Shown piece after piece: positions 31,753 to 49,698 of a stretch of DNA of 64,000 bases. The DNA comes from a virus, in the IMG/VR virus record IMGVR_UViG_3300005095_000072, positions 54,426-118,425 of that record; one strand, written 5' to 3'. The position numbers and the translations under genes were made by a program. The notes under the pieces were generated by a model, which saw only the letters and a list, made by a program, of their open reading frames with translations, had not been told where the DNA came from and searched no databases. Position 1 is the first letter of the stretch. Every line of letters begins with the position of its first letter.

Positions 31753-32139
31753 ATGAAGATTATAGCTTTTGAGATTAAAACATCAACTTTAGAAAAAATG
31801 TTAAAAAAGTATCTTAAAAGCATTTTTGAGAAAGATATTGAATATAAGATAAGTATCTATAAAGATGAAAAAACTAAAGAACCTTATATCTATATAAATG
31901 AAATTTATGTTTATCCTGATAAAAGAGGTCAAGGTTTAGGAACTAGATTCCTCAAAGAGGTTATTAAGTTCGCAGATATTCATAAGTTAAATATAGCTTT
32001 GTTATCAACTTTAATAAACAATAAAAAACAGAATAGCTTTTATTATAGACAAGGTTTTGTTAGATTAAAATGTAAAAATTGTAAATACAATATGAGAAGA
32101 TATTATAAAAGGAAGAACAATGAAGATAATAGCATATAA
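31753..32139 (+). CDS. GNAT acetyltransferase with MKIIA leader
   Basis: The 128-residue protein has GNAT motif A: INEIYVYPDKRGQGLGTRFL, with R58-G-Q-G-L-G63 forming the acetyl-CoA pyrophosphate loop, and a C-terminal YYRQGF (motif B). Cys108 and Cys111 follow in a basic tail. Target unknown. It begins MKIIAFEIKTS, the leader shared with several genes here. It ends inside the next gene's start. Confidence 0.78.
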   Translation: MKIIAFEIKTSTLEKMLKKYLKSIFEKDIEYKISIYKDEKTKEPYIYINEIYVYPDKRGQGLGTRFLKEVIKFADIHKLNIALLSTLINNKKQNSFYYRQGFVRLKCKNCKYNMRRYYKRKNNEDNSI

Positions 32140-33553
32140 CAGTAATCCCAAGAACTTTAGAAGATACCATCAAAGTAAAGGACTGTTTAATAAAAGGTCT
32201 ATGAGAATAGCTAAGAGAAATCAAAAGACACATAAAAAATCAGCTTTAAAAAGATTTTGTGGAGATAAAATAGACACTAATTGTATTACTAGAGCTTTGA
32301 GAAGTAATAAAAAAGAACTTAGAAAGTCTGCTAATTTTGCCTTAACTTTAAAAAAGATAGCTAGTCGTAGAAAGGGTATAAGAAATAAATTTGATATAGC
32401 AACTAGAAAGAAAAACGATGCTATTTATAATAGAAAACATAAAACTGAACTACAAAAGGTTAATAGAGCTAGATTACAAAGTAAAGCTAGTTCAAAGATA
32501 AACTTCGATAAGATACAAAATTACTTCACAAATGATATTTTAGAAACAGTAGCACCTAAAGAAAACAATTCTAACCTTTGGTTAGGTGGAAGTTTTATAG
32601 GAAGACCTTTAGAGTATTTACCTTATGTTTATAGAGGTATTTCAAATGAAGAGTGGAACAATATTCAAAAGAAAAAATATATCAAAAGTGATGGAAGATT
32701 AAATTTATCAAATGAAAAAGGACTGACTGTTTATAGTATCAATCCCAACACTGCTTTAAATTATGCTAATGATTTTATTCCTGATAGTAAAAAAGAGTTG
32801 AAACCTACAAAAGATAAGCCTAATTACATAGTTCAAGTAGATATTAGAGATATAAAAGATAAATTTTTTATAGATAAAGCTGATGGTTATGTTAAGACTA
32901 AAAGTAAAGTACCTATAAAATATATAACTAGAGTGTGGGAGGTATATCCTAATAACAAAACTAAGTTAATTTTCAAAAGAAGCAATTTAGACGAAACTTT
33001 TAACTCTAAGGCTAGTAACAAAACTATTGTTTATCATGGAAGTAATGCTAATATATCTAAGCTAGAACCTAAATATATGATGTTAGACCATGCAAACTCA
33101 CAAGAGGGTGTAGGTATTTATTTTACAACTGAAATATCAACTGCTAAAAGATATGGTAAAAACATTTACACAACAGAAGTAGAACATACAAATTTTATAT
33201 CTTCAAGAACTAAAGTATCTGCTTTAGGTAAGCAAAAAGTAATTAAATTGTTAAAAGAGTTAGGAAAGTTAGACCGTGAGAGTGCTTTTTATCTTGTGAC
33301 TGATTATGGTGTTTATATTACTGAACCTGAAGAGTATGAAGATTATATGATGGAAGATGTTTATAACAGTATGAGAACAGAGCAAATAAGAAATTTTCAA
33401 ATAGAACTATCTGAGAGATTTAGTGTAGTAGATTTTGTTAATGTATGGAATAAAGTATTGCCTAAAGTTCATGGAACTTATATTTTACAAAAAGGTAACG
33501 AGATTTGGTATTCCATTATAAACACAAAATACAAAATTAAAAGAGTTAATTAA
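32120..33553 (+). CDS. Protein with tandem ADP-ribosyltransferase-like domains
   Basis: The 477-residue protein begins MKIIAYNSNP, then a very basic helical region to about 130. Two ART-like units follow: Y171-R-G173 with LTVYSINPNTALNYAN (about 203-218), and Y305-H-G-S308 with GVGIYFTT (330-337) and AKRYGKNIYT. These match the 'H/YxG ... S/Y..a..A..Y' pattern of NAD-dependent ADP-ribosyltransferases; the catalytic Glu is not certain for either. Both are preceded by SKAS-type linkers (LQSKASSK, FNSKASNK). T4 Alt is a packaged ART, making injection plausible. Confidence 0.65.
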   Translation: MKIIAYNSNPKNFRRYHQSKGLFNKRSMRIAKRNQKTHKKSALKRFCGDKIDTNCITRALRSNKKELRKSANFALTLKKIASRRKGIRNKFDIATRKKNDAIYNRKHKTELQKVNRARLQSKASSKINFDKIQNYFTNDILETVAPKENNSNLWLGGSFIGRPLEYLPYVYRGISNEEWNNIQKKKYIKSDGRLNLSNEKGLTVYSINPNTALNYANDFIPDSKKELKPTKDKPNYIVQVDIRDIKDKFFIDKADGYVKTKSKVPIKYITRVWEVYPNNKTKLIFKRSNLDETFNSKASNKTIVYHGSNANISKLEPKYMMLDHANSQEGVGIYFTTEISTAKRYGKNIYTTEVEHTNFISSRTKVSALGKQKVIKLLKELGKLDRESAFYLVTDYGVYITEPEEYEDYMMEDVYNSMRTEQIRNFQIELSERFSVVDFVNVWNKVLPKVHGTYILQKGNEIWYSIINTKYKIKRVN

Positions 33554-33554
33554 T

Positions 33555-34184
33555 ATGTTTGATTTAGAGAAAGCAGTAGAAGATTTTAAAACAAAAGGTG
33601 CAAAGTATTTTATTAGTACTTATGAGAAAGATTTTGAGAGATTGTTAAATCAAGCTCCTAAAGGAAAGCTAAGAAGCTATTTAAAGTCTAATTTTGGAGT
33701 ATATGCTCTTTCAAAGCTTAGGAATATATTATCATTAAATAAAAAAGATTTTCTTTATAATCCTATTTTTAGGCTTGTATTAGATGAATTTTATTTGCTT
33801 GATAAATATAGTCAAAAAGATTTAGATAAAGAGAAGATTATTTTAGATAGAACTCTTTCTAAATATCTTACAGATATGGGATACACTTATTCTATGGAAA
33901 TATTGAATGGTGATAAAGTTCTTAATATAAACTCAATATATGTAGATAAAGATAAAAGAGGTCAAGGTATAGGAACTAAATTTTTAGAAGATTTGATTAG
34001 ATTTGCAGATAAATATAATTATATTTTAACATTAACACCTAGTTCAGATTTTGGAAGTGATGTTAATAAACTTAAAAAATTTTATTTTAAATTTAAGTTT
34101 CAATCAAATAAAGGTAGTAAAGCAATAAATCAATTAAGAAACTCTATGTTTAGACTACCTAAGAATTATAAAAAGGATAGATAA
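33555..34184 (+). CDS. GNAT acetyltransferase with N-terminal extension
   Basis: The 209-residue protein has a helical basic N-terminal part (1-95) and a C-terminal GNAT domain with INSIYVDKDKRGQGIGTKFL (127-144; R135-G-Q-G-I-G140). The motif is close to that of the GNAT at 31753, suggesting duplication and divergence. It lacks the MKIIA leader. Target unknown. Confidence 0.75.
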   Translation: MFDLEKAVEDFKTKGAKYFISTYEKDFERLLNQAPKGKLRSYLKSNFGVYALSKLRNILSLNKKDFLYNPIFRLVLDEFYLLDKYSQKDLDKEKIILDRTLSKYLTDMGYTYSMEILNGDKVLNINSIYVDKDKRGQGIGTKFLEDLIRFADKYNYILTLTPSSDFGSDVNKLKKFYFKFKFQSNKGSKAINQLRNSMFRLPKNYKKDR

Positions 34185-34579
34185 TGAGAATAATATCAAT
34201 GGATGTTAAAGCAGATTATAGTAAGATGACACCTAACAACACTAAAATAGTTATACCTTATATAAAAGTTAAATTGATTAAAAATTCAAAAGATAAAAAA
34301 GACTTTGAAACTTTTTTAAAATACTTTATAGATAAAGGTTATTATATAGTTATAAACAACGGTAGCTATGAAATTTCTCAAAAAGAACTTAGAGATTTAA
34401 AAATAAAACCTAGTTTATTAAAGAAGATACACACTTATGACTCTCCTAAATATAATCCTTATGTAGTGAGAGATTACAGTTCTTTTCCTGTCGAAGATTG
34501 GTTACAGCAAATAAAAGCCTTTGAATACATTAATAATGAAACAGATGAAGGAACTGGATTTTATGGTGATTGGAGCTAA
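34184..34579 (+). CDS. Hypothetical protein with MRIIS leader
   Basis: A 131-residue product starting MRIISMDVKA, a variant of the local leader, behind AAAAAGGATAGATA. The rest is alpha/beta and unassigned (VIPYIKVKLIKNSKDKKDFETF). It is one of the head-cluster accessory genes by position and leader. Confidence 0.6.
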   Translation: MRIISMDVKADYSKMTPNNTKIVIPYIKVKLIKNSKDKKDFETFLKYFIDKGYYIVINNGSYEISQKELRDLKIKPSLLKKIHTYDSPKYNPYVVRDYSSFPVEDWLQQIKAFEYINNETDEGTGFYGDWS

Positions 34580-34583
34580 AAGT

Positions 34584-34961
34584 ATGAAAATTATAGCATT
34601 AACTAAAGGGCAAACAGAAGATAAAGGAACTATTGCTATTGATTTTGATGGAGTTATTCATAAGTATTCTAAAGGTTATGCTGATGGTAGTATTTATGAC
34701 GAGCCTATGACAGGTGCAGAAGAAGCAATGATAGAACTTCTTGATAAAGGTCATAAAATATTTATATTTACTGCTAGAAAAGATAAGAAAGCGATTAAAC
34801 AATGGTTAAAAGATAACTTTAATGATAAGAGATTACATAATTTGCTTATAACAAATGAGAAACTACCTGCACAAGTTTATATTGATGATAGAGGGTATAG
34901 GTTTAAAGGTTGGGGTGGTGCTATGAACTTCATAGAAAAATTGGACGAGGAAATAATATGA
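34584..34961 (+). CDS. HAD-superfamily phosphatase-like protein with MKIIA leader
   Basis: About 125 residues from ATG 34584, chosen over the longer frame at 34521 because TGGAG precedes it and the product then starts MKIIALTKGQ. HAD motifs: D20-F-D22-G-V (nucleophile and acid/base), T63-A-R65 (motif II), and D101-D102-R-G (motif IV). It is a short cap-less HAD, likely acting on a small phosphate ester or nucleotide. The stop overlaps the protease start. Confidence 0.8.
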   Translation: MKIIALTKGQTEDKGTIAIDFDGVIHKYSKGYADGSIYDEPMTGAEEAMIELLDKGHKIFIFTARKDKKAIKQWLKDNFNDKRLHNLLITNEKLPAQVYIDDRGYRFKGWGGAMNFIEKLDEEII

Positions 34962-36076
34962 AAGAAAATAAAATCATCAGTTTAGATAAAATACCTAATA
35001 AGGTAAATCCCCCTAATCCTATGAGAAGAGGTGTTAAAAGAACTGCAAGAAACTATTTCAAACAACCTCATATTCCAAAGAAAATGCTAAATCCTAATGC
35101 TGAAAATCTTAGTATTACTTCTGATAGTATAGAAGATGAAGCAAACACTAATAGGAACTTAGAGGGAGAAGAGATAATAAATCATTTTGATAAAGTAAAG
35201 TGCGACAATTATTCTTGTTATATTGAAAATGATAACTATTTTATATATCCTAGAACAGGTATAAAAGTGGATTTAGATGATACTGTAGAGTTGGCTTTTA
35301 ATTCTAATGATTGGATATTCACTCAAATAACAGGGTTAGCTAGTGTAAATATATTTGATAATTATAAGATAACTCCTGCAACTACAAAATTTGTCAATAA
35401 TAACGGTAATGCTTTTAGTGATAGAATATTAAAAAAATATTATAAAACTTTTATAGGAGCACATAATTTTAGAAATCATAAACAAGTTATTGATGAGTCT
35501 TATGGTATTATCTTAGATGCAGTATTAAGAGAAATACCTGTAAATAATGAAGAGTCTGTCTATTATGTAGATTTACTTATTGCTACAAATAAAGTTAGAC
35601 ACCCTGAATGGACTCAAAAGATAGAAAATAAAATTGTTAGATTTGGTAGTATGGGAGCTGAGTCATCTTCTTTTAAATGCACTTACTGTGGTAATATTCC
35701 AACTTCTTATGATGAGTTCTGCGACCATTTTAAGTTATATAAAGGTAAATATTATATAGACCCTGCTAGTGGTAAAAAGTTAAGGATAGCTCATCTTGTA
35801 GAAGACTATAAAAACAAAGAAGGTAAAGGATATGTAGAATTTGTAGAGTATTCCTTTTTGGATATACCCCCTGCTTTTGAGGGAGCTTCAATGGCTCATG
35901 TTATTAAAGTACCTCAAAATACAAATGTTAAGTTTAGTATTCCCAGACAGTTATTAACTAAATCTGCTTTTAATGTCTGGAAAGAATTTTATAAAATAAA
36001 TGATAATGGTAATAATGTAGGTTATGATGAACTTACAGAGAAACTACCTGCAATATCTGAGTTTAAAGGAGACTAG
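34958..36076 (+). CDS. Putative prohead maturation protease with zinc-finger-like insert
   Basis: About 372 residues from ATG 34958 (GACGAGGAAATAAT upstream; longer start 34910 lies inside the HAD gene). The middle has EESYGIIL-type strands, a 'vYYVDLLIATN' strand, then FGSMGAESSSFKCTYCGN and a downstream CDHF, matching the Ser-Met-Gly plus CxxC...CxH pattern I associate with protease-type head proteins of large phages. Position before scaffold and capsid genes fits. The catalytic triad is not proven; it may instead be a structural head protein. Confidence 0.6.
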   Translation: MKENKIISLDKIPNKVNPPNPMRRGVKRTARNYFKQPHIPKKMLNPNAENLSITSDSIEDEANTNRNLEGEEIINHFDKVKCDNYSCYIENDNYFIYPRTGIKVDLDDTVELAFNSNDWIFTQITGLASVNIFDNYKITPATTKFVNNNGNAFSDRILKKYYKTFIGAHNFRNHKQVIDESYGIILDAVLREIPVNNEESVYYVDLLIATNKVRHPEWTQKIENKIVRFGSMGAESSSFKCTYCGNIPTSYDEFCDHFKLYKGKYYIDPASGKKLRIAHLVEDYKNKEGKGYVEFVEYSFLDIPPAFEGASMAHVIKVPQNTNVKFSIPRQLLTKSAFNVWKEFYKINDNGNNVGYDELTEKLPAISEFKGD

Positions 36077-36081
36077 ATACT

Positions 36082-36114
36082 TTTAAAGTAGGTTAAGTTT
36101 GTTAGTTGTATCTT
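36082..36114 (+). promoter_or_regulatory. Degenerate copy of the conserved promoter
   Basis: TTTAAAGTAG, then GTTAAGTTTG, then TATCTT at 36109-36114, exactly 27 bases from the first T as in the 18769 copy. The upstream half matches well, the -10 is weak. It precedes the decayed homing endonuclease and split polymerase. Confidence 0.4.
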
Positions 36115-36163
36115 GTAGATATGGTTAGTAATTAGCTTATTAAGTTAGCTTAAAAGGAAAAAG

Positions 36164-36899
36164 ATGGGTAAAGTAAAAGCTACAGATGATTTAAAAATAT
36201 TAGAAAATCTTAAAAAAGGTATATACACTGAAGAGTATGTACAAAAATTAAAATTAAAAGATACATTTAGTTTTAAAATAAAAGCTTATTATATTCATAA
36301 AGATAGATATAACTTTGAGGAAAGTAATTATATTTCAAAAGAGAGTAAGGTTAAAGTATTTTGTAATAAGTGTAAAGAATATTTTAATGTAAGAGTAGAC
36401 ACTGTAATAAGAACTAACTCTAAAGGAGGGTGTCCTAATAGATGTTGGAGAGAACCTTTTAGAGGTTATTCTATAGGTAATTTACACCAAAAAGAAAAAA
36501 CTTTAAAAGAATTTAAAGAGTATGTTAAGATTTCAGGGTTAGATAAATTTTTTAAATATGATTTTTCAAGTTATAAAAGTGCAAATGAAGGTATTGTAAC
36601 TACCTGTCTATTACATAATGAAACTTTTAAAAAACCTTTACATAAGTTACGAAAAGGGGTGGAGTTTAGGCAATGTTTATAAGAAAAATGGATTTAAAGA
36701 ACATCATAAAACTCCTCCTAATTATTTTTATATAAAAGGGCAAGATAAATACAATAAAAAAAATTTTACAAAAAGTAAAATATCAAAAAGATATAATATA
36801 CCTATTAATGAGATAAAATCTGAAAAAGCTGTAATGTATGAATTAGGTTATAAAAGGGTATATGATAGTGGATTAACTTGTTATATGAAAGTAAATTAA
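36164..36899 (+). pseudogene. Decayed homing endonuclease (internal deletion plus frameshift)
   Basis: The first frame (36164-36682) starts like the family (zinc-ribbon-type CNKCKEYF, then a second Cys/His region) and stops abruptly. The +1 frame (to 36899) continues with WSLGNVYKKNGF...TPPNYFYIKG...YDSG. This matches the C-terminal end of the intact endonuclease at 40669 (WSKGEVYYKNGF...PSYNYY...YDSG). The EFDGVFWH-type nuclease core is missing. The junction is near 36652-36665. A deletion has therefore fused the ends out of frame. Transcription may persist, but nuclease function is very unlikely. Confidence 0.75.
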
Positions 36900-36912
36900 T
36901 TAAAGGAAATAA

Positions 36913-37674
36913 ATGAGTAATAACACACTAGATAAAATAAAAATTTATAATATTTCTAGTAATGAACAAAAATACCCTGAGATAGGCGATTGGCATAGTA
37001 TTAATACATCTGCATTGTTTGGCTACAATGAGATGAAAGAGCTTTATTTTAAAGATAAAGTTACTTATGAAAAGAAGTATAGGAAAAAAGGAAAGTTCAT
37101 AGGGTTAGGGCTGAATTATGGAGGAACTTGGAAAGTAGTTCAAGATAATACAGGTTTCTCTGAAAGTAAATCTATAAAGTTATTTGCTAATTATTTTAAA
37201 AATCTGAAAGTGTTTAAGAAGTACTTAGATAAAATAGTTGCAAAGGCAATGAAAGTTAAGTATGTAGAAACTTTTTTAGGAAGACGGTTATTTTTACCTC
37301 AGTTAGATAGTGATGAATGGTGGATAAGAAACAAAGGAAAGAATAAGATATACAACTCCCCTATTCAAGCTATGGGGGCTGAGATGGTTAAGCTGATAAC
37401 TTTAAAAGTGGGAGAGTACTTAGAAAGATATGATATTTATTCTTGGCAATTCAATAATATTACTAAAAGCTATCATAAAAGAATTGTAGGTATCAATTAT
37501 ATTTATTATAAAAAGCATAAGAAAGAAATTGAAAAAAGATTTAATGATGCACCTGATGGGCATACAAAAGTCTTAGTAATAGGAAAAGATAAAGAAGTTA
37601 AGTTCGAGTATCAAAGGAACTTAAAAATATCTATGAAAGATATACGAGATTTTAAAATGTTTATAATATGGTAA
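36913..37674 (+). CDS. Family-A DNA polymerase fragment: fingers/motif B
   Basis: The 253-residue protein starts just before D26-W-H28-S (PolA 'D.Hs.TA'), then motif B R57...K61...L65...Y69-G70, equivalent to E. coli R754/K758/F762/Y766-G767, with Leu at 762. The ETFLGRRLFLP and NSPIQAMGAEMVKL segments follow. Motif A (DYSQIELR) and all upstream polymerase/exonuclease parts are absent. The C-terminal 80 residues (basic, from about YSWQFNNI) do not look like polymerase. Own RBS AAAGGAAAT before ATG 36913. Confidence 0.82.
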   Translation: MSNNTLDKIKIYNISSNEQKYPEIGDWHSINTSALFGYNEMKELYFKDKVTYEKKYRKKGKFIGLGLNYGGTWKVVQDNTGFSESKSIKLFANYFKNLKVFKKYLDKIVAKAMKVKYVETFLGRRLFLPQLDSDEWWIRNKGKNKIYNSPIQAMGAEMVKLITLKVGEYLERYDIYSWQFNNITKSYHKRIVGINYIYYKKHKKEIEKRFNDAPDGHTKVLVIGKDKEVKFEYQRNLKISMKDIRDFKMFIIW

Positions 37675-37685
37675 AGGAAAAGATA

Positions 37686-38255
37686 ATGTTTGTTAAAGCT
37701 AAATATAATGATATAGATATGTATAAAAGAGATGTACAGCAAGATTTATTTATTCCGTTCAATACAGTCCATGATGAGATTGATTATCTTATAGATTCAA
37801 ATATGTTTAAACCACTTCTAAAAAAGATTATAAATATATCTGCACTTAAAAAAGTTATGGGTAAGTTGAAATTACCTTATATTAATATATTGTTTGATGT
37901 AGAATACGATGAGTATAATAGTTGGACTGCTAAAAAAGATATAGATATATATCAAGTAGCTTTACATGAGGAAGAACATAAGTGGAGAAAAAAGTATCAA
38001 GATTTGTATAGTAAGCTCAGTCAAAAGAGAAGTGATACAAATAAAAAAGAACCTTTAAAATCAAGTAGTAAAGAAAATCAAGTATCTTCTAACATAATAG
38101 AGCTGGTGTTACCTGAGAAAGAGATGACAGAAGAACTTTTAGAAAAGATACAAAAGTCATCAGAGGGTAATATTCGCTTAGGTGTTAATGTCAATGGAGA
38201 TATAATGTGGTACTCTAAGCTTATCAACGAAAAGGTAGTGAAAGAGTATCTATAA
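37686..38255 (+). CDS. Family-A DNA polymerase fragment: motif C
   Basis: About 189 residues from ATG 37686, chosen because AAAGGAAAAGATA precedes it; ATG 37668 overlaps the upstream gene. It contains FNTVHDEIDYLI, with the H29-D30-E31 motif C holding the second catalytic Asp (D882 in E. coli), then INILFDVEYDEYNSWT, the polymerase C-terminal end. After about 100 a Lys/Ser/Glu-rich tail is added. It must pair with the 36913 product and a motif-A polypeptide to work. Confidence 0.8.
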   Translation: MFVKAKYNDIDMYKRDVQQDLFIPFNTVHDEIDYLIDSNMFKPLLKKIINISALKKVMGKLKLPYINILFDVEYDEYNSWTAKKDIDIYQVALHEEEHKWRKKYQDLYSKLSQKRSDTNKKEPLKSSSKENQVSSNIIELVLPEKEMTEELLEKIQKSSEGNIRLGVNVNGDIMWYSKLINEKVVKEYL

Positions 38256-38291
38256 AATAAATGGCATTAGCCAATATCTAAGGAGATACTT

Positions 38292-39176
38292 ATGGATAGA
38301 GAGAAAGAGATACTATCTGTTGTGTCTGCACAATCAAGAGCTATGGACACTATAGCTTCAAGATTAGTAGCAGGTGAATACACAGATGAGGACATTCAAA
38401 GCAAGTTAGAGTCTGTTGCAAGAGTTCTTGAAACAACTGCAAGTGCACAAGATTACCTATATAGTCAAATACAAGATGCAAGTTCGTTTAGTGTTATGGC
38501 AAATGATGAGTTCGACTCAGTATTGAGTAAAGTTCTAGCAACTCAAGCTCAAGCAGAACTACTAACACAAGCATTAGAGGGAGAGCTTGTTACTATTGCA
38601 GGTGATGAAGAGAGCGACGAAGATGAACTTGATGCAGAAGCTTGTGGAGTACAAGATGATGAGATATTAGAAGCTAAGTCTTTTGATATGTATGCAGGTG
38701 ATGAAGAAGGAAATGACGAGCCTAGTGATGAGGACGATGATGTTCTTGAAACTGATGCAGTAGCAGTAAGGCATAATCCAGAGACTGGAGATATAGAGGC
38801 TTATAGTGCTAAACCTAGTAAGCCTAAAATGATGTATATTAAAAAACAAAATGCAACTCCTCTAAGAAAACCTGCAGGTAGATTAAAAGTTAAACCTACA
38901 TCAAGAGGTAAAAAACCTTTCGGAAAACCAACTGCAAGTGCAGAGGAGCTTATGGCACAAGCACAAGAGCTTATAGCAATGGCACAAGAGATAGGGCAAG
39001 GTGATAATCATGGAGAGATAAATCCTCAAGTGAAGCAAAGAGAACCTAAGTCTTTAAATAAAATGGTAAATGATAGTGCAAATGGAGTTCCTGCTGTAAA
39101 AACTGTAGCAAGTGAAACTACTATGCAATCAACTGCAAATGATAGCTCATCTATGATTAGATGGGACTTTGTGTAA
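38292..39176 (+). CDS. Putative scaffold/prohead core protein
   Basis: The 294-residue protein is Ala/Gln/Glu-rich and helical at the N terminus, strongly acidic in the middle (GDEESDEDELDAE; NDEPSDEDDDVLE), then basic (RLKVKPTSRGKKPFGKP) and again helical Ala-rich (AQAQELIAMAQEI). This composition and its place between protease and capsid genes fit an assembly core. ATG 38292 follows AAGGAGATACTT. Codon choice here uses more GCA than flanking genes. Confidence 0.65.
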   Translation: MDREKEILSVVSAQSRAMDTIASRLVAGEYTDEDIQSKLESVARVLETTASAQDYLYSQIQDASSFSVMANDEFDSVLSKVLATQAQAELLTQALEGELVTIAGDEESDEDELDAEACGVQDDEILEAKSFDMYAGDEEGNDEPSDEDDDVLETDAVAVRHNPETGDIEAYSAKPSKPKMMYIKKQNATPLRKPAGRLKVKPTSRGKKPFGKPTASAEELMAQAQELIAMAQEIGQGDNHGEINPQVKQREPKSLNKMVNDSANGVPAVKTVASETTMQSTANDSSSMIRWDFV

Positions 39177-39185
39177 GGAGCAAAT

Positions 39186-39654: not shown

Positions 39655-40578
39655 ATGGAAAGATTTATCCCAACAAGTGTAGCTCAATCAACTAGCTCAC
39701 TACAAGATATAACAACTAGAAACGAGCTGACTGCAAAGCTTATGGTAACTGCCGCAGGTAGAGAAGAATTGGCTGTGTCAATGGTAGAACCTCTAAGAGA
39801 GATGAGAGACTATCGTGCAGTAGGTAGAAGAGCATTTAGAGTATATCCTCTAGGACAAGGTGCTATTCCTGAGTTTCCTAAAGATGTAGATGTACCTGCT
39901 TATGTAATAGGTGAAGAAGGTGATGAAGTTCAAGCTAAAATAAAAGGAAAGAAAGTACTTGTACCTCTTTTCAAAATAACTTCAAACCCTATGATACCTA
40001 TAACTGAAATCAAACAAGCAAGATTTGACTTAAATGATAGAGTTAGAGAGAAAGTTAAATCAGAGATTGTTAAAGTAGAGGATGGTAAAATCTTTGAGCT
40101 TATGAAGATAGTAGCAGAGAGAAGCACAGATATAAATGCACTAACAACTGTAAATGAGTCAGAGCTAACAGTTAAGCACTTTAGCGAAGCACAAGCAGAG
40201 ATAGAGAAGTGGGGAGAGCTTGATGCAGTAAATATCTTCATGAACCCTTATTGGAAACAAACTCTAAGAGAGATGAACAATGTTCAAACAGGGTACTATG
40301 TAGATTTTGAAACAGCAAGAGAGCTTATAACAGCAGGTTATGTTGCAAGAATCAATGGAACTCAAATTCATACTTCAAGTATGGTACCGAAAGATATGAT
40401 ATTCATAACAGCTGACCCTGAGTTCTTAGGAAGACTGGTTATTTCATTCGATTTAACAGTCATCGAATCAGAAGATGCAAAGGCTCTCGAAGTCGGGTAT
40501 AGTATCTTTGAAGAGATAGGTATCTTGATACACAACCCTAAAGCACTTAGTGCAATCAAAATCAATCTAGGACAGTAG
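39655..40578 (+). CDS. Major capsid protein
   Basis: About 307 residues from ATG 39655, chosen for AAGGAGAG upstream; the longer start at 39595 lies in the decoration gene. It has an HK97-like plan: N-arm, a basic E-loop region (RRAFRVYPLGQGAIPEF), a long spine helix (KQARFDLNDRVREKVKSEI), and A-domain strands. It is bounded by decoration protein and a strong terminator, as expected for the most expressed late gene. No obvious cleavage site is identified. Confidence 0.8.
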   Translation: MERFIPTSVAQSTSSLQDITTRNELTAKLMVTAAGREELAVSMVEPLREMRDYRAVGRRAFRVYPLGQGAIPEFPKDVDVPAYVIGEEGDEVQAKIKGKKVLVPLFKITSNPMIPITEIKQARFDLNDRVREKVKSEIVKVEDGKIFELMKIVAERSTDINALTTVNESELTVKHFSEAQAEIEKWGELDAVNIFMNPYWKQTLREMNNVQTGYYVDFETARELITAGYVARINGTQIHTSSMVPKDMIFITADPEFLGRLVISFDLTVIESEDAKALEVGYSIFEEIGILIHNPKALSAIKINLGQ

Positions 40579-40668: not shown

Positions 40669-42246
40669 ATGGGTAAAGATAAAATTAGAATAAGAACAGC
40701 TCAAGGTGTATTTTACATAGAACCTACTAATCATAAATTTTCTTACAATACAAAGCAATACCTTGAAAAGCTTTTCTATAGGTATCCTGATAAATTTAAA
40801 CCTAGACAATTTAGAAAATTTGCTTGGTTTAGTGCAAAGACTTTAACTAAAGTATATTGTTATGGCTGTAAAAAATATATAGAGCAAACTCCTGAAAGAT
40901 TACTAGGAGGTAAATTTTGTAAAGTATGTGCAGGTAATGTACAATACACAGATAAACAATTTAAAGAAAAACTAAAAGAAATTTATAAAGATAAACCTCA
41001 TCTTGATTTTTCACAAGGGATTTACACTAAAGCAAGAGAGCCTTATAAGATGGTTTGTAAGTATCATGGAGAGTATATTGTAAAATATGCATCTACTTTG
41101 TTAAAAGGGTATAATTGTTATAAATGCACTAGAAAATCAACTGCTGAAAATATGAATAAAGTAATGAAAGAAAAGTTTAAAAATGGTTATAAACCTGATA
41201 GAATTAAGATGAGGAAAACTTCATTTAAAGATAGATTAGATAAAGAGTTCGAGTTCGTAGAACCTATTGAAGTTGTAGACCAATATTATGCTACAGATAG
41301 AGTAGAGATACGACATAAGAAATGTGGCTCTATCAGAACTGTAAATCTTGATAATTGTTCTAGGTTAAAATGCTTTAAGTGTCATAGGGTAGGAACTTCA
41401 AAAGGGGAGCAAGAAGTAGCAGAGTTTTTAAAACAGTATGTAGATATTGAAGAACATATTAAACCTTTTGGAGATAAAAGAGAGATAGATATTTATATAC
41501 CTAGTAAAGATTTGTTTATTGAGTTCGATGGTGTATTTTGGCATAGTGATAAGTATAAAGGAGTTAAGGCTCAACAAGAAAAAACTTTAGAGAGTTTAAA
41601 TAATGGATATGATATTATTCATATAACAGATAGTCAATGGTTAAACAATAGAAGTACTATTAAATCTATCTTGTTAAATAAGTTAGGATTAACTCCATTT
41701 AAAATAGGAGCAAGAAAATGCACTGTAAAAGAGATAGATTACAAAACTGCTAGAAATTTCGTAGATAAAAATCATTTGCAGGGTTATGCTAGAAGTTCTA
41801 TAATTTTAGGATTGTATTTTGAAGATGAACTTTTATCTGTAATGTCTTTTTCTGTATTAAAGAAAGACTATGAAGTAAATCTTAATAGATTTGTGAATAA
41901 GAACTTCACTTTAGTTCAAGGTGGGTTTAGTAAGTTGTTGAGATATTTTATAGAAAATTACAAAGACAGATATAAGGTTATAACTTCATTTGCAGATTTA
42001 CAATGGTCTAAAGGTGAAGTATATTATAAAAATGGATTTAGATATTTATACACAACTGTTCCTAGTTATAATTATTATACAAAAACTGATTTTAAGATGT
42101 ATCATAAGTCCTATTTTAGAAAAAGAAGGCTCATGAGAATATTAGGATTAAAAAGAACTAATATGACAGAGTTTCAGATGGCAGATAAGTTAGGCTTGAT
42201 TAGGTATTATGATAGCGGTAAGATGAAGTTTCAGCTTAACATATAA
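40669..42246 (+). CDS. Homing endonuclease, Vsr-like, with zinc fingers
   Basis: The 525-residue protein has several CxxC pairs in the first half (CYGCKKYI, CKVCAG, CYKC, CFKC), probably zinc-binding DNA-recognition units. Its nuclease core is of the Vsr/EDxHD type: REIDIYIPSKDLFIEFDGVFWHSDKY (about 270-296; E272 and D290 region). The C-terminal DNA-binding tail is WSKGEVYYKNGF...PSYNYY...YDSG. It is a free-standing selfish gene between the capsid terminator and the neck genes, with its own weak RBS (GGGTAGAAAAAG). It looks intact and is the complete relative of the relic at 36164. Confidence 0.85.
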   Translation: MGKDKIRIRTAQGVFYIEPTNHKFSYNTKQYLEKLFYRYPDKFKPRQFRKFAWFSAKTLTKVYCYGCKKYIEQTPERLLGGKFCKVCAGNVQYTDKQFKEKLKEIYKDKPHLDFSQGIYTKAREPYKMVCKYHGEYIVKYASTLLKGYNCYKCTRKSTAENMNKVMKEKFKNGYKPDRIKMRKTSFKDRLDKEFEFVEPIEVVDQYYATDRVEIRHKKCGSIRTVNLDNCSRLKCFKCHRVGTSKGEQEVAEFLKQYVDIEEHIKPFGDKREIDIYIPSKDLFIEFDGVFWHSDKYKGVKAQQEKTLESLNNGYDIIHITDSQWLNNRSTIKSILLNKLGLTPFKIGARKCTVKEIDYKTARNFVDKNHLQGYARSSIILGLYFEDELLSVMSFSVLKKDYEVNLNRFVNKNFTLVQGGFSKLLRYFIENYKDRYKVITSFADLQWSKGEVYYKNGFRYLYTTVPSYNYYTKTDFKMYHKSYFRKRRLMRILGLKRTNMTEFQMADKLGLIRYYDSGKMKFQLNI

Positions 42247-42329: not shown

Positions 42330-42866
42330 ATGAAAGTCATAGCAAATATAACAATGAATGCACGAAACAATGGAGTTAAATTCCCACTTGTTAAAGGTAA
42401 AGAAGTTGAGTCAACTGTAGTGGAAGCTTTAGGGGATAAATATTTAGAGTTCCTTAAAGAGAACAAGTATGTTACTATTGTTAAGGATACAAATGAAGAT
42501 ATAGTAAATGAGGAACTAACAGATATAGATGAAGGTAATGATGATACAAAAGAACCTGAAACTAATGAAAACACAGATGAAACAACTGAAAACAATACTA
42601 ATGAAAACACAGACACAGATAACCAAGATGAAAATAATCTTATAGTTGTTGAAATAGATGGAGAAGAGTACGAGCTAACAGAAGAGGAGTATCAAGAGTA
42701 TCTAGCTTCATTAGAAGCAGAAGAGAACGAAGATACAACTGAAGTAGCAGATGAGCCTGAGATAGTGGAAGATGTTATAGAAGAACCAAAAGAAACTAAA
42801 ACAAAATCAAAAAGCACTAAAAAAACTTCTAAGAGAAGAACAAGTAAAAATACAAAAAAGCTGTAA
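42330..42866 (+). CDS. Acidic structural or neck-region protein
   Basis: The 178-residue protein begins MKVIANITMNARNNG (a variant of the local leader), then a central very acidic Asn/Thr/Glu stretch, and a basic C-terminal tail of Lys/Ser/Thr (KTKSKSTKKTSKRRTSKNTKK). Low complexity suggests a flexible linker between two charged ends. First gene after the homing endonuclease; function unknown. Confidence 0.6.
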   Translation: MKVIANITMNARNNGVKFPLVKGKEVESTVVEALGDKYLEFLKENKYVTIVKDTNEDIVNEELTDIDEGNDDTKEPETNENTDETTENNTNENTDTDNQDENNLIVVEIDGEEYELTEEEYQEYLASLEAEENEDTTEVADEPEIVEDVIEEPKETKTKSKSTKKTSKRRTSKNTKKL

Positions 42867-42876
42867 AAGATAGATA

Positions 42877-44135: not shown

Positions 44136-44894
44136 ATGATAGGTAAAGTTATTCACAATTTTGTTAAGTTCATAGAAGAACAGTTTAAAGTTTATGATAT
44201 AGATATGAACAGTAAGTATAATTCTGATATAAATAATATATCTGAGTATTCATCTTCTCTTAGACTTAGAAAACTTTTTAAAGATGATATAGATAATATT
44301 ATAAGCCCAGACGATATTAAGAATTTAAAAAAGCAAAATTATGTACTTATGTTATATAATTTTAATGCTATTGAGAAAGACCAAGAAGCTTTTAATAATA
44401 TCAACTTAGAAGCTGTGTTTTTACCTAGTGAAAGTTCTCCTTTTACCTATGATAGAACTGAAAAAACAGATATAGATACAGACCTTATTCATTATATTAG
44501 AAGTGTTAATGAGTATTGTAGTCAAGAGGATTTAACTGTTAGAGATGTTATATATGGTAGGATACCTTTTGACTTTAAGATAATAGTCAATGATATTGAT
44601 TTAGCTTATAATTTACAAATGGCTTATTTGTCTAAGCTAGTAAATGAAAGGTCTTTTGGTATATCTATCAAGTTTGCTAGTTATCAAGAACCTTTAGATA
44701 TTACATATAAACTAAAATTAAATAATATTAGTAATTTTAGTCAAATAGACCCTATCAAATATGGAAATTTATGGCAAATAGATTTCAATGGAACTTTAGA
44801 GGGTTATTTTCTTTCTGTTTATTCTAAAAAGATTAAAGGATTATGTAACATTGATGTTACTCTTAAAGTATGTAATGATTTAGAGAACTGTTAA
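44136..44894 (+). CDS. Neck/tail-terminator candidate
   Basis: A 252-residue alpha/beta protein directly abutting the upstream gene. It contains DYNLQMAYLSKLVNERSFGISIK-like alpha/beta stretches and ends CNIDVTLKVCNDLENC. Location just before the sheath is where tail terminators and neck proteins lie; assignment is positional only. Confidence 0.5.
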   Translation: MIGKVIHNFVKFIEEQFKVYDIDMNSKYNSDINNISEYSSSLRLRKLFKDDIDNIISPDDIKNLKKQNYVLMLYNFNAIEKDQEAFNNINLEAVFLPSESSPFTYDRTEKTDIDTDLIHYIRSVNEYCSQEDLTVRDVIYGRIPFDFKIIVNDIDLAYNLQMAYLSKLVNERSFGISIKFASYQEPLDITYKLKLNNISNFSQIDPIKYGNLWQIDFNGTLEGYFLSVYSKKIKGLCNIDVTLKVCNDLENC

Positions 44895-44925
44895 AAATAT
44901 AACTAAGTTTTAAAAGCTCTTAGTG

Positions 44926-44943
44926 AGCCTTTATGTAAAGGCT
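44926..44943 (+). terminator. Intergenic hairpin before the tail operon
   Basis: Perfect 7-bp repeat AGCCTTT (44926-44932) / AAAGGCT (44937-44943) with loop ATGT, followed by ACATTTAT. It could end the neck transcript or be a processing site. The T-tail is poor. Confidence 0.45.
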
Positions 44944-44965
44944 ACATTTATACTAGGAGTTATAT

Positions 44966-45154
44966 ATGATTAATGTTATCATTGTCAATAAGACAGGCAT
45001 GAATCAATATGTAGATGTAGATGGTAACGACAAAACAGAAGATACTGTTATAGTCGGACCTCACGAAAGAGTACAGGTATCTCTCCCAAATGAGAAGAGA
45101 TTTTTAGAGATTAGCAAACAATTTGCTAAATCACTTATAGTAAGAAAAAGATAA
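44966..45154 (+). CDS. Small hypothetical protein before sheath gene
   Basis: A 62-residue product from ATG 44966 behind CTAGGAGTTAT. It is one small beta-rich domain (MINVIIVNKTGMNQYVDVDGND). A minor tail or neck component by location only. Confidence 0.6.
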   Translation: MINVIIVNKTGMNQYVDVDGNDKTEDTVIVGPHERVQVSLPNEKRFLEISKQFAKSLIVRKR

Positions 45155-45164
45155 GGAGTAGTTT

Positions 45165-47726
45165 ATGGGTAGTGCAAAAGTAACGATAAGACAGCAAGAT
45201 AGAACATTAACTATTCCTAGTCTATCATCTGTTTATGGTGGTATAGCTATTAGAGCTAATAAAGGTAAAATAGGAGAACCTTTCCTTGTAACAGGTGAAG
45301 ATGAACTGATAGATAATTTTGGTGAGCCTTTGTTGGCTTCAACTGGGTATTACTCTGCTATGACTTATCTTGGTGAGTCAAATAAGTTGTGGGTAGTGAG
45401 AGCCGCACACGAAGATGTTAAGTATTCTGTGGCTTTAGTTAGAAGTAAAGTAAGCAATATTCCAACAGACCCTATCATAGATGGGTATATCCCTGACCCT
45501 ATTGTTAAACCTTTAGATGGTGGAATGACACAAGAAGAGTTAGATAGTTATATCTTCCCACTGTACAGCACAGATAGAATATATGAGTTAGCAGAAAATA
45601 CAATCTTTGCAAATGCAGATGATACAACTAAAGTTAGATTAAATAACCTTGATGGTCTTAAAGTTGGTGATAAGCTAGTATTTAACACAGGAGATATAAA
45701 TTCTCTTAATAATGATAATATAGCTTATGGTATAGTTGATTTATATACTCAAGATTTAACTTATGATAAAATAACAGTAGATACAGCTATAAGTGGGGGT
45801 GAAGGTGTTGAGGTATTTAAAGATGATGGAGAGGGGAACCTAACAGCTTATCCAAACCATCCTAAAGTAGTTAGAGATTTTACTAGTTCTAAAGAGATTT
45901 TAGTAGATAATGCAGACTATATAGCAAATGGAGATTTAATCTCTATAGGTGGAGCAACTGCTACTTTCGAAAGCAAAGAAGTATATCAAGAAGTAGGTAG
46001 CTTTGTAGAGCTTGACAATAAAGTTACTTTAACAAAAGACTATAAGGTATATAAAATCTTACAAGATAAAATGGAAGACAGAGATGCTTTCTTGGTTGCT
46101 AGTGCAAATCAAGGTAAATGGGGTAATAAAATCTCTATAGGTATAGCACCTGCAAAAGATGATATAGAACTAGGAGCTTTCTTAGTCTTAGTTTATTATG
46201 ATGGGGTACAGGTTGAAACTTGGAAAGTATCAAGAAAACAAGTTATCAATGGTAATGGAGACCAGTTATATTTAGAAGATGTTATCAATGGTAAATCTAA
46301 ATACATCTTAGTTAAAAACAATGTAGCAGATGTTAGCTATATTGATGGAGAACCTGAGTTACCTTTATTTACTAATTATAGTTTATGGTTACAAAATCCA
46401 ACTGATTTATTCCAAAAACAAAGTATAACTTTAGAAGAGAACTTACTTCAAGGTCATACAGAGGTTAAGTTAAATTCAGTTGCAGGTTTAGCTGTAGGGA
46501 ATAGAATCAAGTTCGAGATAGACATCAATGATAAACTATCTTCTGAGTATAAAATCTTGTCTATAGATAGTAATAACAACACTATTATCTTAGATAGACC
46601 TATAGTTGAGGTAGAGATAAACAAAGAGATTATAGATGAAAATGGAAGTACTTATACTGCAAGTCTATATAAATTTGATGATACTGTAACAGATTTAGCA
46701 AATGGTATCAAAAATGGAGTGCAGTATTATCCATTAACTAAACTAGATAAAGTTTATTATAACTATCCTATGGGTGTTAGCTTTAGTATAAGTGGCATTG
46801 ATGGTAAACTTGTTGATGCAGGTGCAAACCTTATGAAAGGTGGGGATGACGGAAGTCCTGTTACTGTTTCTGATATGGTAAATGCTATTAAACTGTTATC
46901 CAATAGAGAAGAAACTCCTGTAACATTGTTACTTGATGGAGGATACACTGTTCCTGCTTATGCACAAGCTCTTTATGAAGTGGCTAAAAATCACGATTTA
47001 ACTCATGTGTATTTATCTTCTGATATAAATGCTGAGTTAAGTGCTAACTATAAAAATGAGATAGTTGATTATAAAGCAAGTCTTAACTTAAACACTGAAA
47101 AAGCAAGTGTATTTACAGGTTGGTTAAAAGTTTTAGATGAATATAATCAAAAAGAACTTTATATTGCACCAGACGGTTTCGCCGCCGCTTCACAAGTATT
47201 TACAACAGATAACTATGCTATGTGGTATCCAGCCGCAGGTTGGAAACGAGGTAAAATCGTTGCTCTTGATATAACTAGAAAATTCTCTGAGGGAGATAGA
47301 GACTGGTTTGTAGATAATAGAATAAACCCTATTAGATATAAAAAAGGTTCAGGCTTAGTTATATGGGGTAATGAAACTCTTATCAGTAACCCATCTCCAT
47401 TACAACTTAGAAGTGTAGCTATGCTGTTAATCTATATCAAATATGGATTATATGAAGCACTTGAAAATGTAGAGTTCGACTTAAATGATGAAACAACTTG
47501 GAGCTTAGTTGAAGGCTCTATAGATGGCTTTATGAGAGATGATGTACAAGCTAAAAGAGGTGTTTATAGTTATAGAGTAGCTGTTAAAGATGTTATAACT
47601 GATACAGATATAGCAAATAGAAGGATGCCTGTATTCTTAGGTATTCAACCAACTATGGATATAAAAGAGATACCTGTTACCCTTGCTATATATAACAAGG
47701 GACAAAAAATAGAAGTAAGTGTGTAA
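45165..47726 (+). CDS. Contractile tail sheath protein
   Basis: The 853-residue protein has a typical sheath C-terminal domain: LDITRKFSEGDRDWFVDNRINPIRYKKGSG, GNETLISNPSPLQLRSVAMLLIYIKYGLYEALENVEFD, and a final strand with IKEIPVTLAIYNKGQKIEV. The N terminus IRANKGKIGEP fits the family's first strand exchange arm. The length exceeds T4 gp18 (659), from extra outward domains around 80-500. It contracts to drive the tube through the envelope. Confidence 0.92.
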   Translation: MGSAKVTIRQQDRTLTIPSLSSVYGGIAIRANKGKIGEPFLVTGEDELIDNFGEPLLASTGYYSAMTYLGESNKLWVVRAAHEDVKYSVALVRSKVSNIPTDPIIDGYIPDPIVKPLDGGMTQEELDSYIFPLYSTDRIYELAENTIFANADDTTKVRLNNLDGLKVGDKLVFNTGDINSLNNDNIAYGIVDLYTQDLTYDKITVDTAISGGEGVEVFKDDGEGNLTAYPNHPKVVRDFTSSKEILVDNADYIANGDLISIGGATATFESKEVYQEVGSFVELDNKVTLTKDYKVYKILQDKMEDRDAFLVASANQGKWGNKISIGIAPAKDDIELGAFLVLVYYDGVQVETWKVSRKQVINGNGDQLYLEDVINGKSKYILVKNNVADVSYIDGEPELPLFTNYSLWLQNPTDLFQKQSITLEENLLQGHTEVKLNSVAGLAVGNRIKFEIDINDKLSSEYKILSIDSNNNTIILDRPIVEVEINKEIIDENGSTYTASLYKFDDTVTDLANGIKNGVQYYPLTKLDKVYYNYPMGVSFSISGIDGKLVDAGANLMKGGDDGSPVTVSDMVNAIKLLSNREETPVTLLLDGGYTVPAYAQALYEVAKNHDLTHVYLSSDINAELSANYKNEIVDYKASLNLNTEKASVFTGWLKVLDEYNQKELYIAPDGFAAASQVFTTDNYAMWYPAAGWKRGKIVALDITRKFSEGDRDWFVDNRINPIRYKKGSGLVIWGNETLISNPSPLQLRSVAMLLIYIKYGLYEALENVEFDLNDETTWSLVEGSIDGFMRDDVQAKRGVYSYRVAVKDVITDTDIANRRMPVFLGIQPTMDIKEIPVTLAIYNKGQKIEVSV

Positions 47727-47736
47727 GGAGAACGGT

Positions 47737-48279
47737 ATGCAAATAGGTATAAATAAAAGAAAAGCATTGTTAGGCGAAGCTCAATCACTCTTACATTGGG
47801 ATGTCGAGATCGTTAATCCTCCAAAGGCAATAGGAGCACCTCCAAAAGGTTTTCCTATTAGGATAACAACTTCTGATATGCCGATAGAACAAGAAGAGTA
47901 TCAAGATGTAGAGCTTGGAGGTCATTCTTGGACTGGCTCAGTTAAAGTGATAAAAGCAGGAGAAATTAACTTCGAGCTATTTGAAGGAACTGACCAAGTA
48001 GTAAAAGACTATTTCTTGAAATTGCTAAATGCTAAATGGTCAGGAGATGGAAAAGAGACTTATGGTATTCAGCACACTATGGCTGATTTAAAATGTGATG
48101 TTAAAATTACATTGAGAGGACCTGATGATAAACCTACAAGAACTTATCTTTTAATAGGAACACTAATAAGGAGAACAAGTGTAGGTAGCTTAGGTCAAAC
48201 AGCAGAGTTGCAAAGAATAGGTGGTGCTATGAAGTATGATGACTTCCACGAAGGCACTGGAGGAAATGTAGTTTATTAA
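47737..48279 (+). CDS. Tail tube protein
   Basis: About 180 residues from ATG 47737 (AAGGAGAACGGT upstream; the longer start 47719 overlaps the sheath stop). It lies right after the sheath. The beta-rich sequence (EIVNPPKAIGAPPKGFPIRITTSDMP; GTLIRRTSVGSLGQT) is compatible with a gp19-type tube subunit. A perfect hairpin follows. Confidence 0.75.
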   Translation: MQIGINKRKALLGEAQSLLHWDVEIVNPPKAIGAPPKGFPIRITTSDMPIEQEEYQDVELGGHSWTGSVKVIKAGEINFELFEGTDQVVKDYFLKLLNAKWSGDGKETYGIQHTMADLKCDVKITLRGPDDKPTRTYLLIGTLIRRTSVGSLGQTAELQRIGGAMKYDDFHEGTGGNVVY

Positions 48280-48292
48280 GCTACTAAAGAAA

Positions 48293-48317
48293 AGTTAAGA
48301 GGAAAAACCTCTTAACT
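48293..48317 (+). other. Strong hairpin downstream of tail tube gene
   Basis: Perfect 10-bp inverted repeat AGTTAAGAGG / CCTCTTAACT with loop AAAAA, immediately after the tube stop. There is no T-run after it (AATATT), so an mRNA 3'-end stabiliser or processing site for the highly expressed tube transcript is more likely than a terminator. Confidence 0.6.
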
Positions 48318-48340
48318 AATATTATAAGGAGAAAAGAACA

Positions 48341-48868
48341 ATGAAGATAATTGCAGGACTAAAAAATTTAGATGGGGTAAGTGGATATACTGTAGTTATA
48401 ACTTTATATTCAGAAACAGAACCTATAAAAGGTGTGATAAATAAAAAAGCAGTAGAAAAACTTTATCAAAAAATAGATATTATTTTAAAAGATAAAATGT
48501 TTAAAGGCATGAAAGTTGGTCGTATTCCTAAACCAAAAGAAAGTAATGGCGAAATAAGGCAAGGTATTATTGTAATAAATATTAAAGGAGTGGGTTCTAG
48601 TGTAGATTTACAGAAAAAAAGTGAAGAATTTATAAATAAACTAAAAACTATTTTAGGGGTGAAATCTCAAAAAGGATACAATAATAGTTTAACTGCTATA
48701 TCTATACATATAAGAAGTTTATATTCAGGATTTGAAAAAAGAGCAGACAAACTTTTTGATAAAAAACCGACAGGATTATATAAGGCAGAAGCTTTTGCAG
48801 GATATATAAAATCTTCTAAGGCTATTATTTTAGATAAAAAGAAGTTTGAAAATATGCTAATAGGTTAA
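48341..48868 (+). CDS. Hypothetical tail-region protein with MKIIAGL leader
   Basis: The 175-residue basic protein starts MKIIAGLKNLDGVSGYTV; the gene at 49438 starts MKIIAGLQSKANIAVYTV, so their N termini share a module. The 5' side is also shared (AAGAACAATGAARATAATTGCAG). The rest is alpha/beta with a LRKKxK-type basic end. Function unknown; may be another leader-carrying accessory protein. Confidence 0.65.
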   Translation: MKIIAGLKNLDGVSGYTVVITLYSETEPIKGVINKKAVEKLYQKIDIILKDKMFKGMKVGRIPKPKESNGEIRQGIIVINIKGVGSSVDLQKKSEEFINKLKTILGVKSQKGYNNSLTAISIHIRSLYSGFEKRADKLFDKKPTGLYKAEAFAGYIKSSKAIILDKKKFENMLIG

Positions 48869-48881
48869 AAGGAACTAAAAG

Positions 48882-49412
48882 ATGAAGATAGGTTTAAATC
48901 AATTAAAAAAAATAGGAGAAATTGGAAATAACTCAAATTGGTTAGTCAGATTTAGTAAACCATCTTCATCTTCTGTTTCTGTGTCAAATACTTTAAATGC
49001 TATTGATAATAAATGGTTTCCTGCTATGAGTGTAGATTATAACCAACTTTCTGTTACAAAGGTTGATGTAACAATAGGACCTGATTTAGTTATTCCTATA
49101 CCTGTAAAAGCTGAGAAAGCTAGTAAGGTATCTATAGGGTTTTATGATAAAGATTTAAAAACTTTAAGATTAGCTTTAATCTCTTGGGTAGAAAATAACA
49201 CTAAATTGTATAATAAGCATCTTGCACCAGATATATCTAAATTGAAAAGTATTGCTTTACAGTTAGATATTATTCACACAACTAAGCAAAAACAAGAGGT
49301 GTATAAAGATTCTTATTATGTAATATTAGATGAAGATATATCTTTTCATGGAGATTATCAATTTTTACTAGACACTAATACAGTAAGTTTTATGATTGTA
49401 GGGTATAATTAA
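48882..49412 (+). CDS. Second tube-like/baseplate-proximal tail protein
   Basis: The 176-residue protein reads MKIGLNQLKKIGEIGNNSNWLVRF and ends with DEDISFHGDYQFLLDTNTVSFMIVGYN, a beta-sandwich style pattern similar to gp19/gp54-type tube-initiator proteins. It sits between two leader-carrying genes downstream of the true tube gene. The assignment rests on position and general strand pattern. Confidence 0.5.
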   Translation: MKIGLNQLKKIGEIGNNSNWLVRFSKPSSSSVSVSNTLNAIDNKWFPAMSVDYNQLSVTKVDVTIGPDLVIPIPVKAEKASKVSIGFYDKDLKTLRLALISWVENNTKLYNKHLAPDISKLKSIALQLDIIHTTKQKQEVYKDSYYVILDEDISFHGDYQFLLDTNTVSFMIVGYN

Positions 49413-49437
49413 AAATAAAAAACAAAAAGGAAGAACA

Positions 49438-49698
49438 ATGAAAATAATTGCAGGGTTACAAAGTAAAGCAAATATTGCAGTTTATACTGTATTTTTTAAA
49501 AACAATGAAGATATGAATAAAGCTTTAAAATTAAATGATAAACTAAAAATAGTTCCTGATAGTGAAATTGAAAATATAGAAAAAGAGTCAAACGATAGAT
49601 TAGCACATTTTGATTTTTCTTCTAAATATGCATCTCAGTTTGATATAGAGATAGCAAAGAAGTTAAAATTAAAAGTGGGTTATGCTCTATCAAAATAA
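49438..49698 (+). CDS. Small hypothetical protein with MKIIAGL leader
   Basis: The 86-residue protein starts MKIIAGLQSKANIAVYTV behind AAAAAGGAAGAACA, a translation-start cassette almost identical to that of the ART-like gene at 32120. The rest is charged and helical. It may be a remnant or small cousin of the gene at 48341. Confidence 0.62.
   Translation: MKIIAGLQSKANIAVYTVFFKNNEDMNKALKLNDKLKIVPDSEIENIEKESNDRLAHFDFSSKYASQFDIEIAKKLKLKVGYALSK

Follow-up and report, generated by a model that had tools for sequence, protein, structure and literature searches.

The window analysed here is a stretch of 64,000 nucleotides, bases 54,426-118,425 of a 118,425-base virus record (IMG/VR IMGVR_UViG_3300005095_000072). 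It holds a series of genes whose products begin with a common five-residue leader, M[KR]IIA, concentrated between the portal gene and the gene for the head maturation protease. Coordinates are those of the window unless marked as record positions. The genes of this paragraph are all on the + strand. The portal protein forms the upstream border of the leader block (28598..30478; phrog_16240, E 7e-11). Next comes a 423-amino-acid protein with a NUDIX-like C-terminal half (30478..31749). It is followed by two genes that start with MKIIA, a GNAT acetyltransferase of 128 amino acids (31753..32139; Pfam Acetyltransf_7, E 5e-10, above cutoff) and a 477-amino-acid fusion with an ART-like C-terminal domain (32120..33553; ART-PolyVal, E 4e-4, below cutoff). 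A second GNAT of 209 amino acids is leaderless in this phage (33555..34184). A protein of 131 amino acids without assigned function starts with MRIIS (34184..34579), and a HAD-like hydrolase of 125 amino acids starts with MKIIA (34584..34961; phrog_1238, E 2e-21, and sub-cutoff Pfam HAD matches). The protease closes the block and starts with MKENKIIS (34958..36076; phrog_18299, E 7e-16). Further on lie the leaderless major head protein (39655..40578; phrog_2522, E 9e-44) and a protein that starts with MKVIA (42330..42866). Two orphans of 175 and 86 amino acids, both starting with MKIIAG, are found downstream of the tail sheath gene (48341..48868 and 49438..49698).

A first-pass annotation of the window had named the MKIIA starts at 31753, 32120, 34584, 48341 and 49438, together with MRIIS at 34184 and MKVIA at 42330. 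Each of these starts was verified. The start at 34584 is an inner start of the open reading frame 34521, preceded by GGAG, and its orthologues in two related phages (relatives B and D, described below) begin at the same place. The grouping of 42330 with the leader genes holds for its MKVIA start and probably not for its membership. This protein is acidic, with an isoelectric point (pI) of 4.2, and lies outside the block. Most likely it is a look-alike and not a member of the leader family. A start with MGIIGN at record 16265 was also dropped from the leader set. Over the whole record, M[KR]II[AS] begins nine genes. Six of them are in the window and three outside it (record 8941, record 9746 with MKIIS, and record 19600), which means that head and tail genes are not its only location.

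The conservation of DNA on the 5' side, also claimed before, is equally present. The 21-mer AGAACAATGAARATAATWGCA occurs exactly, on the + strand, in three start regions: AGAACAATGAAGATAATAGCA at 32114..32134, AGAACAATGAAGATAATTGCA at 48335..48355 and AGAACAATGAAAATAATTGCA at 49432..49452. Shuffled sequences contained 0.05 copies on average, and none of 100 shuffles reached three. A search of the whole record added a fourth copy, with one mismatch, at record 8935. The ribosome site GGAAGAACAATG precedes three leader genes and one leaderless gene (record 7222). Ribosome site and leader are therefore separate features.

The leader was then compared across three genomes: the window phage record, relative B (L018) and relative D (L017). 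With the major head protein as query, two IMG/VR relatives at 84% identity were found. One is B (55.8 kb), which covers the head region and has a protease 52% identical to that of the window phage. The other is a third close relative (L013, 16.9 kb), whose sequence does not include the leader block. With the maturation protease as query, we found D (109.8 kb; protease 53% identical) and 36 distant loci (L019-L054) at 28-45% identity. Gene calling gave 152 genes for the window record and 58 and 162 for the two relatives (372 altogether). Among them, 26 are leader genes.

In both relatives the leader is found on the whole portal-to-protease block, the maturation protease included (MNIIA and MSIIA). 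The genes of B after the portal begin with MRIIAL (metalloprotease-like), MRIIAK (NUDIX-like), MRIVAS (ART-like), MRIIAS (GNAT), MRIIAM (function unassigned), MRIIAL (HAD-like) and MNIIAN (maturation protease). Those of D begin with MRIIAE (NUDIX-like), MRIIAS (ART-like), MKIIAM (very basic, pI 11.5), MRIIAN (HAD-like), MKIIAI (function unassigned) and MSIIAF (protease). One extra leader of B is at 4359 (MKIIG), which makes eight leader starts in this genome; three extra leaders of D are at 8161, 28148 and 94840 (MGIIG), which makes nine. The orthologue in B (L018:8161) of the leaderless GNAT 33555 begins with MRIIA, and the HAD-like orthologues of 34584 in both relatives do the same.

The first-pass annotation had asked whether the leader gathers near head genes in related phages, and had taken the lack of such enrichment as one half of the outcome that would speak against capsid targeting. 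What we find is the opposite. The leader is present on 7/7 block genes of B, 6/6 of D and 4/7 of the window phage. Outside the block, it is present on 1/51, 3/156 and 7/145 genes, respectively, the last count still including 42330 and the MGIIGN start that were later dropped. The enrichment in the block is significant in each genome (Fisher, B 3e-8, D 4e-9, window phage 5e-4). The odds that we give to the readings discussed below rest on this distribution.

Chance is the simplest explanation to consider. MKII-type starts are a usual first beta-strand and could recur independently, and 42330 shows that look-alikes occur. However, this explanation is contradicted by shuffle and empirical controls. 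Starts of the form M[KR][IV][IV][AS] were counted in 10 of the 152 genes of the window record (42330 included), and in 6 of 58 and 7 of 162 in the two relatives. Column shuffles gave a mean of 0.2 and a maximum of 3 in 5000 for the window record, and means of 0.4 and 0.3 with a maximum of 4 for the relatives. Elsewhere, in 166 other fetched loci, such a start was counted only 3 times in 2702 genes. The clade proportion of 25/372, a count that includes 42330 and omits two MxIIG starts, differs strongly from this (p = 1e-20). We regard chance as extremely improbable.

The same controls bear on a second possibility, in which the first codons favour initiation and the peptide is without function. 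A-rich codons after the start may aid initiation, which counts for this explanation. Nevertheless, the column shuffles give 0.2 to 0.4 starts against the 10, 6 and 7 observed. The loci below 38% GC show such a start in 1 of 1341 genes, and in the clade the amino acids are kept while synonymous codons change. A mere translation signal is thus very unlikely. A further control used HAD homologues from 129 loci (the best 80 of 375 viral, plus 49 genomic). The start was readable in 107 of them, and the leader was found in two, those of B and D. The closest outside HAD homologue among the loci fetched, 57% identical, begins at the domain itself: MKILAIDFDGVI.

What is conserved in the leader is the peptide. 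When orthologues were compared in eight cases, 23 of 24 positions were identical within residues 3-5. For residues 6-12 the count was 16 of 56, and residue 2 was the same in 4 of 8. Positions 6-13, after the constant core of five residues, show weak residue preferences. The MKIIA peptide is encoded by 9 DNA versions in 11 genes and MRIIA by 7 in 8, with a codon usage that resembles, by eye, that of the early codons of other genes. In the two relatives, the 18 bases upstream of leader genes show no added similarity (0.395 vs 0.391 and 0.417 vs 0.386). The many synonymous versions and the unconserved upstream DNA of the relatives indicate that selection acts on the peptide.

This result has to be set against the idea of a recombination or start cassette, also raised in the first-pass annotation. 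According to it, DNA with the ribosome site, the ATG and the first codons is exchanged between genes, and the peptide is a by-product. Several observations agree with such exchange. In the window genome, the 18 upstream bases are more alike in leader genes than in others (similarity 0.499 vs 0.392; 0.25% of random sets reach 0.499), and GGAAGAACAATG stands ahead of three leader genes. ATA is preferred at codon 4 (20/27). The first 13 residues are alike between the non-homologous proteins of 34184 and D103574 (L017:8760), with 29 of 39 matching bases, and the HAD-like gene of D has an apparently new leader ahead of an apparently degraded one. The likeness over 13 codons and the doubled HAD-like leader imply that leaders do move. 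As a general explanation, though, the cassette is not supported. The upstream likeness is limited to the window genome, an overlap with the preceding gene was seen for 10 of 25 leader starts, and codons 2 to 5 vary synonymously. Also, one gene with the same ribosome site lacks the leader. We consider a cassette with a meaningless peptide improbable.

The bodies behind the leader are unrelated, as had been stated from the window alone. They comprise GNAT, HAD-like, NUDIX-like, ART-like and metalloprotease-like proteins, a very basic protein and orphans. At E 0.01, the products of 48341, 49438 and record 8941, 9746 and 19600 match none of the 372 proteins called in the three genomes. The GNAT label has Pfam support above the cutoffs. 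The metalloprotease label (B) comes from a sub-cutoff match (E 0.008) and phrog_87 (4e-4). The NUDIX label is a single sub-cutoff Pfam match (E 0.003) on the D protein only. Likewise, ART-PolyVal (E 4e-4) was matched by the window protein only, and the ART-like proteins of B and D matched no family. For 34584, the matching PHROG, phrog_1238, is labelled phosphoheptose isomerase by PHROGs; we take the DFDG motif of this protein as a HAD sign. The leader carriers are more basic than other proteins, with a median pI of 9.3 (27 genes, 42330 included) against 6.6 (345 genes; p = 2e-4). Structure models of the HAD-like and ART-like proteins (three sequences each) have a mean predicted local distance difference test score (pLDDT) of 58.5 and 55.5. 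Their first 13 and 8 residues, respectively, are below 50, like other stretches. With models of such low confidence, the low scores at the leader prove little.

Two genes of the window phage seem to have joined parts that are separate in the relatives. The C-terminal half of the 30478 protein is orthologous, at 55-57% identity, to the NUDIX-like proteins that carry the leader in B and D. An internal IIAS within DTDKIIASSLVT (DTDKIIASS; 31129..31140, + strand) aligns with the MRIIA starts of these separate genes. It would be a leader left inside a gene fusion. In 32120, the N-terminal basic part is the orthologue of the D leader gene L017:8760 (49%), and both begin with MKIIA. The C-terminal part is the orthologue of the separate ART-like leader genes L017:8197 and L018:7610 (42-44%). 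The middle domain has a single match, through its residues 162-240, in each of three phage records of 65,014 bases (42%, E 3e-9), where the annotations are 'large polyvalent protein', 'RelA/SpoT' and 'hypothetical protein'. The motif SKAS stands at both joints of this fusion. The first copy is at residues 121-124 (32480..32491, + strand), and the second at residues 296-299 (33005..33016, + strand), where the separate ART-like genes begin with MRIVAS or MRIIAS.

One may conjecture that the SKAS joints are cleavage sites. From portal to protease, the pattern [ILVTSKR][ILVTKRQN]AS is more frequent than elsewhere (12 in 6753 residues vs 62 in 82166, p = 0.01). An xA↓S-type pattern is also found at the fusion joints, at the N terminus of the B portal and at the C terminus of the scaffold-like protein of the window and D. 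We set this candidate site aside, given the weakness of the effect and a pattern picked after looking. It remains a lead.

As regards the neighbouring genes, the portals of the window phage (28598-30478), B and D carry KxRA[ST] near the N terminus, around residues 17-22, which is a possible processing site. A gene that is scaffold-like by its position (38292-39176) has no PHROG match. Its C-terminal tail is kept in the three phages, with VKT[VT]A, some 20 residues and then a W[DN]F end. Between the protease and the scaffold-like gene, at 36913-38255, two adjoining open reading frames have motifs that resemble those of the C-terminal part of a family A DNA polymerase. Similar pieces are present in B and D, and in B they are separated by an open reading frame of 561 amino acids. 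Other open reading frames among the head genes (40669-42246 and 36164-36899) presumably resemble homing endonucleases, judging from their motifs.

Taken together, the distribution and the conserved peptide suggest that M[KR]IIA probably serves as a minimal address at the N terminus, by which proteins are directed into the head of this clade while it assembles. During prohead assembly, the leader would dock on a shared component of the core, be it the scaffold, the portal or the interior of the shell. This docking would enclose the cargo, that is, the GNAT, HAD-like, NUDIX-like, ART-like, metalloprotease-like and very basic proteins and several orphans. In the relatives, it would also enclose the protease itself. 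The cargo might then exit with the DNA and act early in the new host.

Capsid targeting had been proposed from the window with T4 internal proteins as the model. Circumstantial support for it comes from the enrichment near head genes, the basic carriers and the leader on the protease of the relatives. A T4-type cleavage site does not follow the leader. The motif [LI]xE in residues 6-25 is present in 4 of 26 leader proteins and 90 of 346 others, so it is not enriched. This null result is one of several points that weigh against an address to the head. The enzyme labels of the carriers, except GNAT, come mostly from sub-cutoff matches or orthology, and part of the carriers are neutral or acidic. 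The protease of the window phage begins with MKENKIIS. Moreover, the leader is missing on the window GNAT 33555 and on the record-79024 orthologue of B4359 and D94840, from which it follows that it is dispensable for individual proteins. The leader also occurs far away from the head block, on three genes of the window record and two of D, and two carriers in the window follow the tail sheath gene. Finally, only three clade genomes span the leader block, three start codons (A89009, B14129 and B14827) were shifted by hand to the leader before counting, and the block was defined after its genes had been inspected.

Some of these points would also agree with a protein tag for another partner. It could be a membrane or a host factor, an inhibitor by which harmful enzymes are silenced, or a different assembly intermediate, the tail included. 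Such a tag would fit the carriers that are located away from the head block or downstream of the tail sheath gene. The ART-like and metalloprotease-like carriers could harm the cell. Yet the clustering from portal to protease and the leader on the protease of both relatives point to the head. Another partner has a small but appreciable chance.

If the address to the head is accepted, the block looks like a 'polyvalent' injected protein in the form of separate, individually labelled parts. We suggest a single functional block, present as one large protein in some phages and as labelled parts here. A wider proposal can be held only tentatively, although we think it possible. M[KR]IIA would be a zip code that addresses any protein, the protease included, to the prohead. 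Injected weapons would be kept as exchangeable single genes and not as one giant polyvalent protein. The internal IIAS and SKAS copies would be released by the same protease, and the distant phage Alice (see below) would use a different, longer leader for the same purpose. If the leader is indeed an address to the head, the first five codons would be enough to single out the proteins that such phages deliver from the virion, orphans among them. It would also bear on an open question in T4, namely how the prohead protease enters the core. In addition, proteins could be loaded into phage heads through a very compact handle of five residues.

Searches beyond the clade covered several collections. 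The exact scan of the viral contig collection for the 25-base start region gave no result. The same was observed for TerL as a query, for the protease alignment against the genomic contig collection and for the 48341 protein in the viral contig collection. The NUDIX-like alignment matched B and D only. When 12 records were scanned with three different DNA patterns, the matches were the window phage, B and D. We also compared 43 loci by their N termini: L014-L016 (two INPHARED phages), the 36 distant protease loci L019-L054 and four pieces of Mycobacterium phage Alice. A shared start on unrelated bodies was found only in Alice.

In this phage, the genes for gp98, gp99 and gp115 lie between the major head protein and the tail sheath (L191:23764-26025, 26018-27319 and 36243-36671). 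Their products have a common N-terminal leader of 19-23 residues, MRI[IV]xAREQ[FY]xML, with 61-84% identity. Beyond it, they have no mutual match better than E 0.3. The gp115 protein is weakly GNAT-like (sub-cutoff), and its start was missed by the gene caller, which can miss starts. Neither the protease-containing gp90 nor the GNAT-like gp113 carries the leader. A 25-residue tblastn query (E up to 10) found it at 406 places in 199 phage records, of which 193 are Mycobacterium phages. The Alice leader is longer than MKIIA and differs from it beyond MRI[IV]; a relation between the two is conjectural. Alice-type phages grow on M. smegmatis, and the literature matches listed included no virion proteomics of them.

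Among the literature matches listed for a published shared leader of this kind, the relevant ones concern T4, P1, P22 and the giant phage SPN3US. A related comparison is with polyvalent proteins, of which solo versions near structural genes are described in the cited part of Iyer et al. 2017 (PMC5512222). Here too, conflict-type domains (ART-like, GNAT, metalloprotease-like) adjoin head genes. In contrast, they are mostly separate proteins with their own leader each, and 32120 and 30478 are fusions. Of five proteins scanned from the distant relatives, four (1223-1429 amino acids) contain topoisomerase IB, accompanied by PAP2 in three cases and by HAD in one; the remaining protein (607 amino acids) had no family match. 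These giant topoisomerase IB proteins (L021:4823-8734, L033:5073-8837, L034:4722-8390 and L048:4447-8733) are encoded two small genes upstream of the protease. They are possibly virion-delivered polyvalent proteins.

The closest model for an address to the head is the capsid-targeting sequence (CTS) of T4. The cited passages of PMC5694885 and PMC9026906 describe that T4 internal proteins enter the head via an N-terminal propeptide of 10-20 residues. For IPIII, the first 10 residues are enough for incorporation, and the gp21 propeptides may act like a CTS (both in the T4 passages of PMC9026906). The system studied here resembles it in the short N-terminal leader on unrelated bodies, in carriers that are basic on average and in a phage-encoded prohead protease (34958). 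It differs in the length of the constant part (five residues), in having several enzymes among the carriers and in the leader on the protease of two relatives. Without a T4-type cleavage site after it, the leader is not classed as a T4 CTS but would function in a similar way. In P1, an N-terminal signal of more than 9 and fewer than 30 residues brings the large antirestriction protein DarB into the head, according to the passage in PMC9024508. As these sources present them (PMC9026906, PMC9024508), the signals of T4 and P1 are N-terminal, short and sufficient for packaging. The leader described here is N-terminal like that of DarB, but in this clade the genes of one block have one leader in common.

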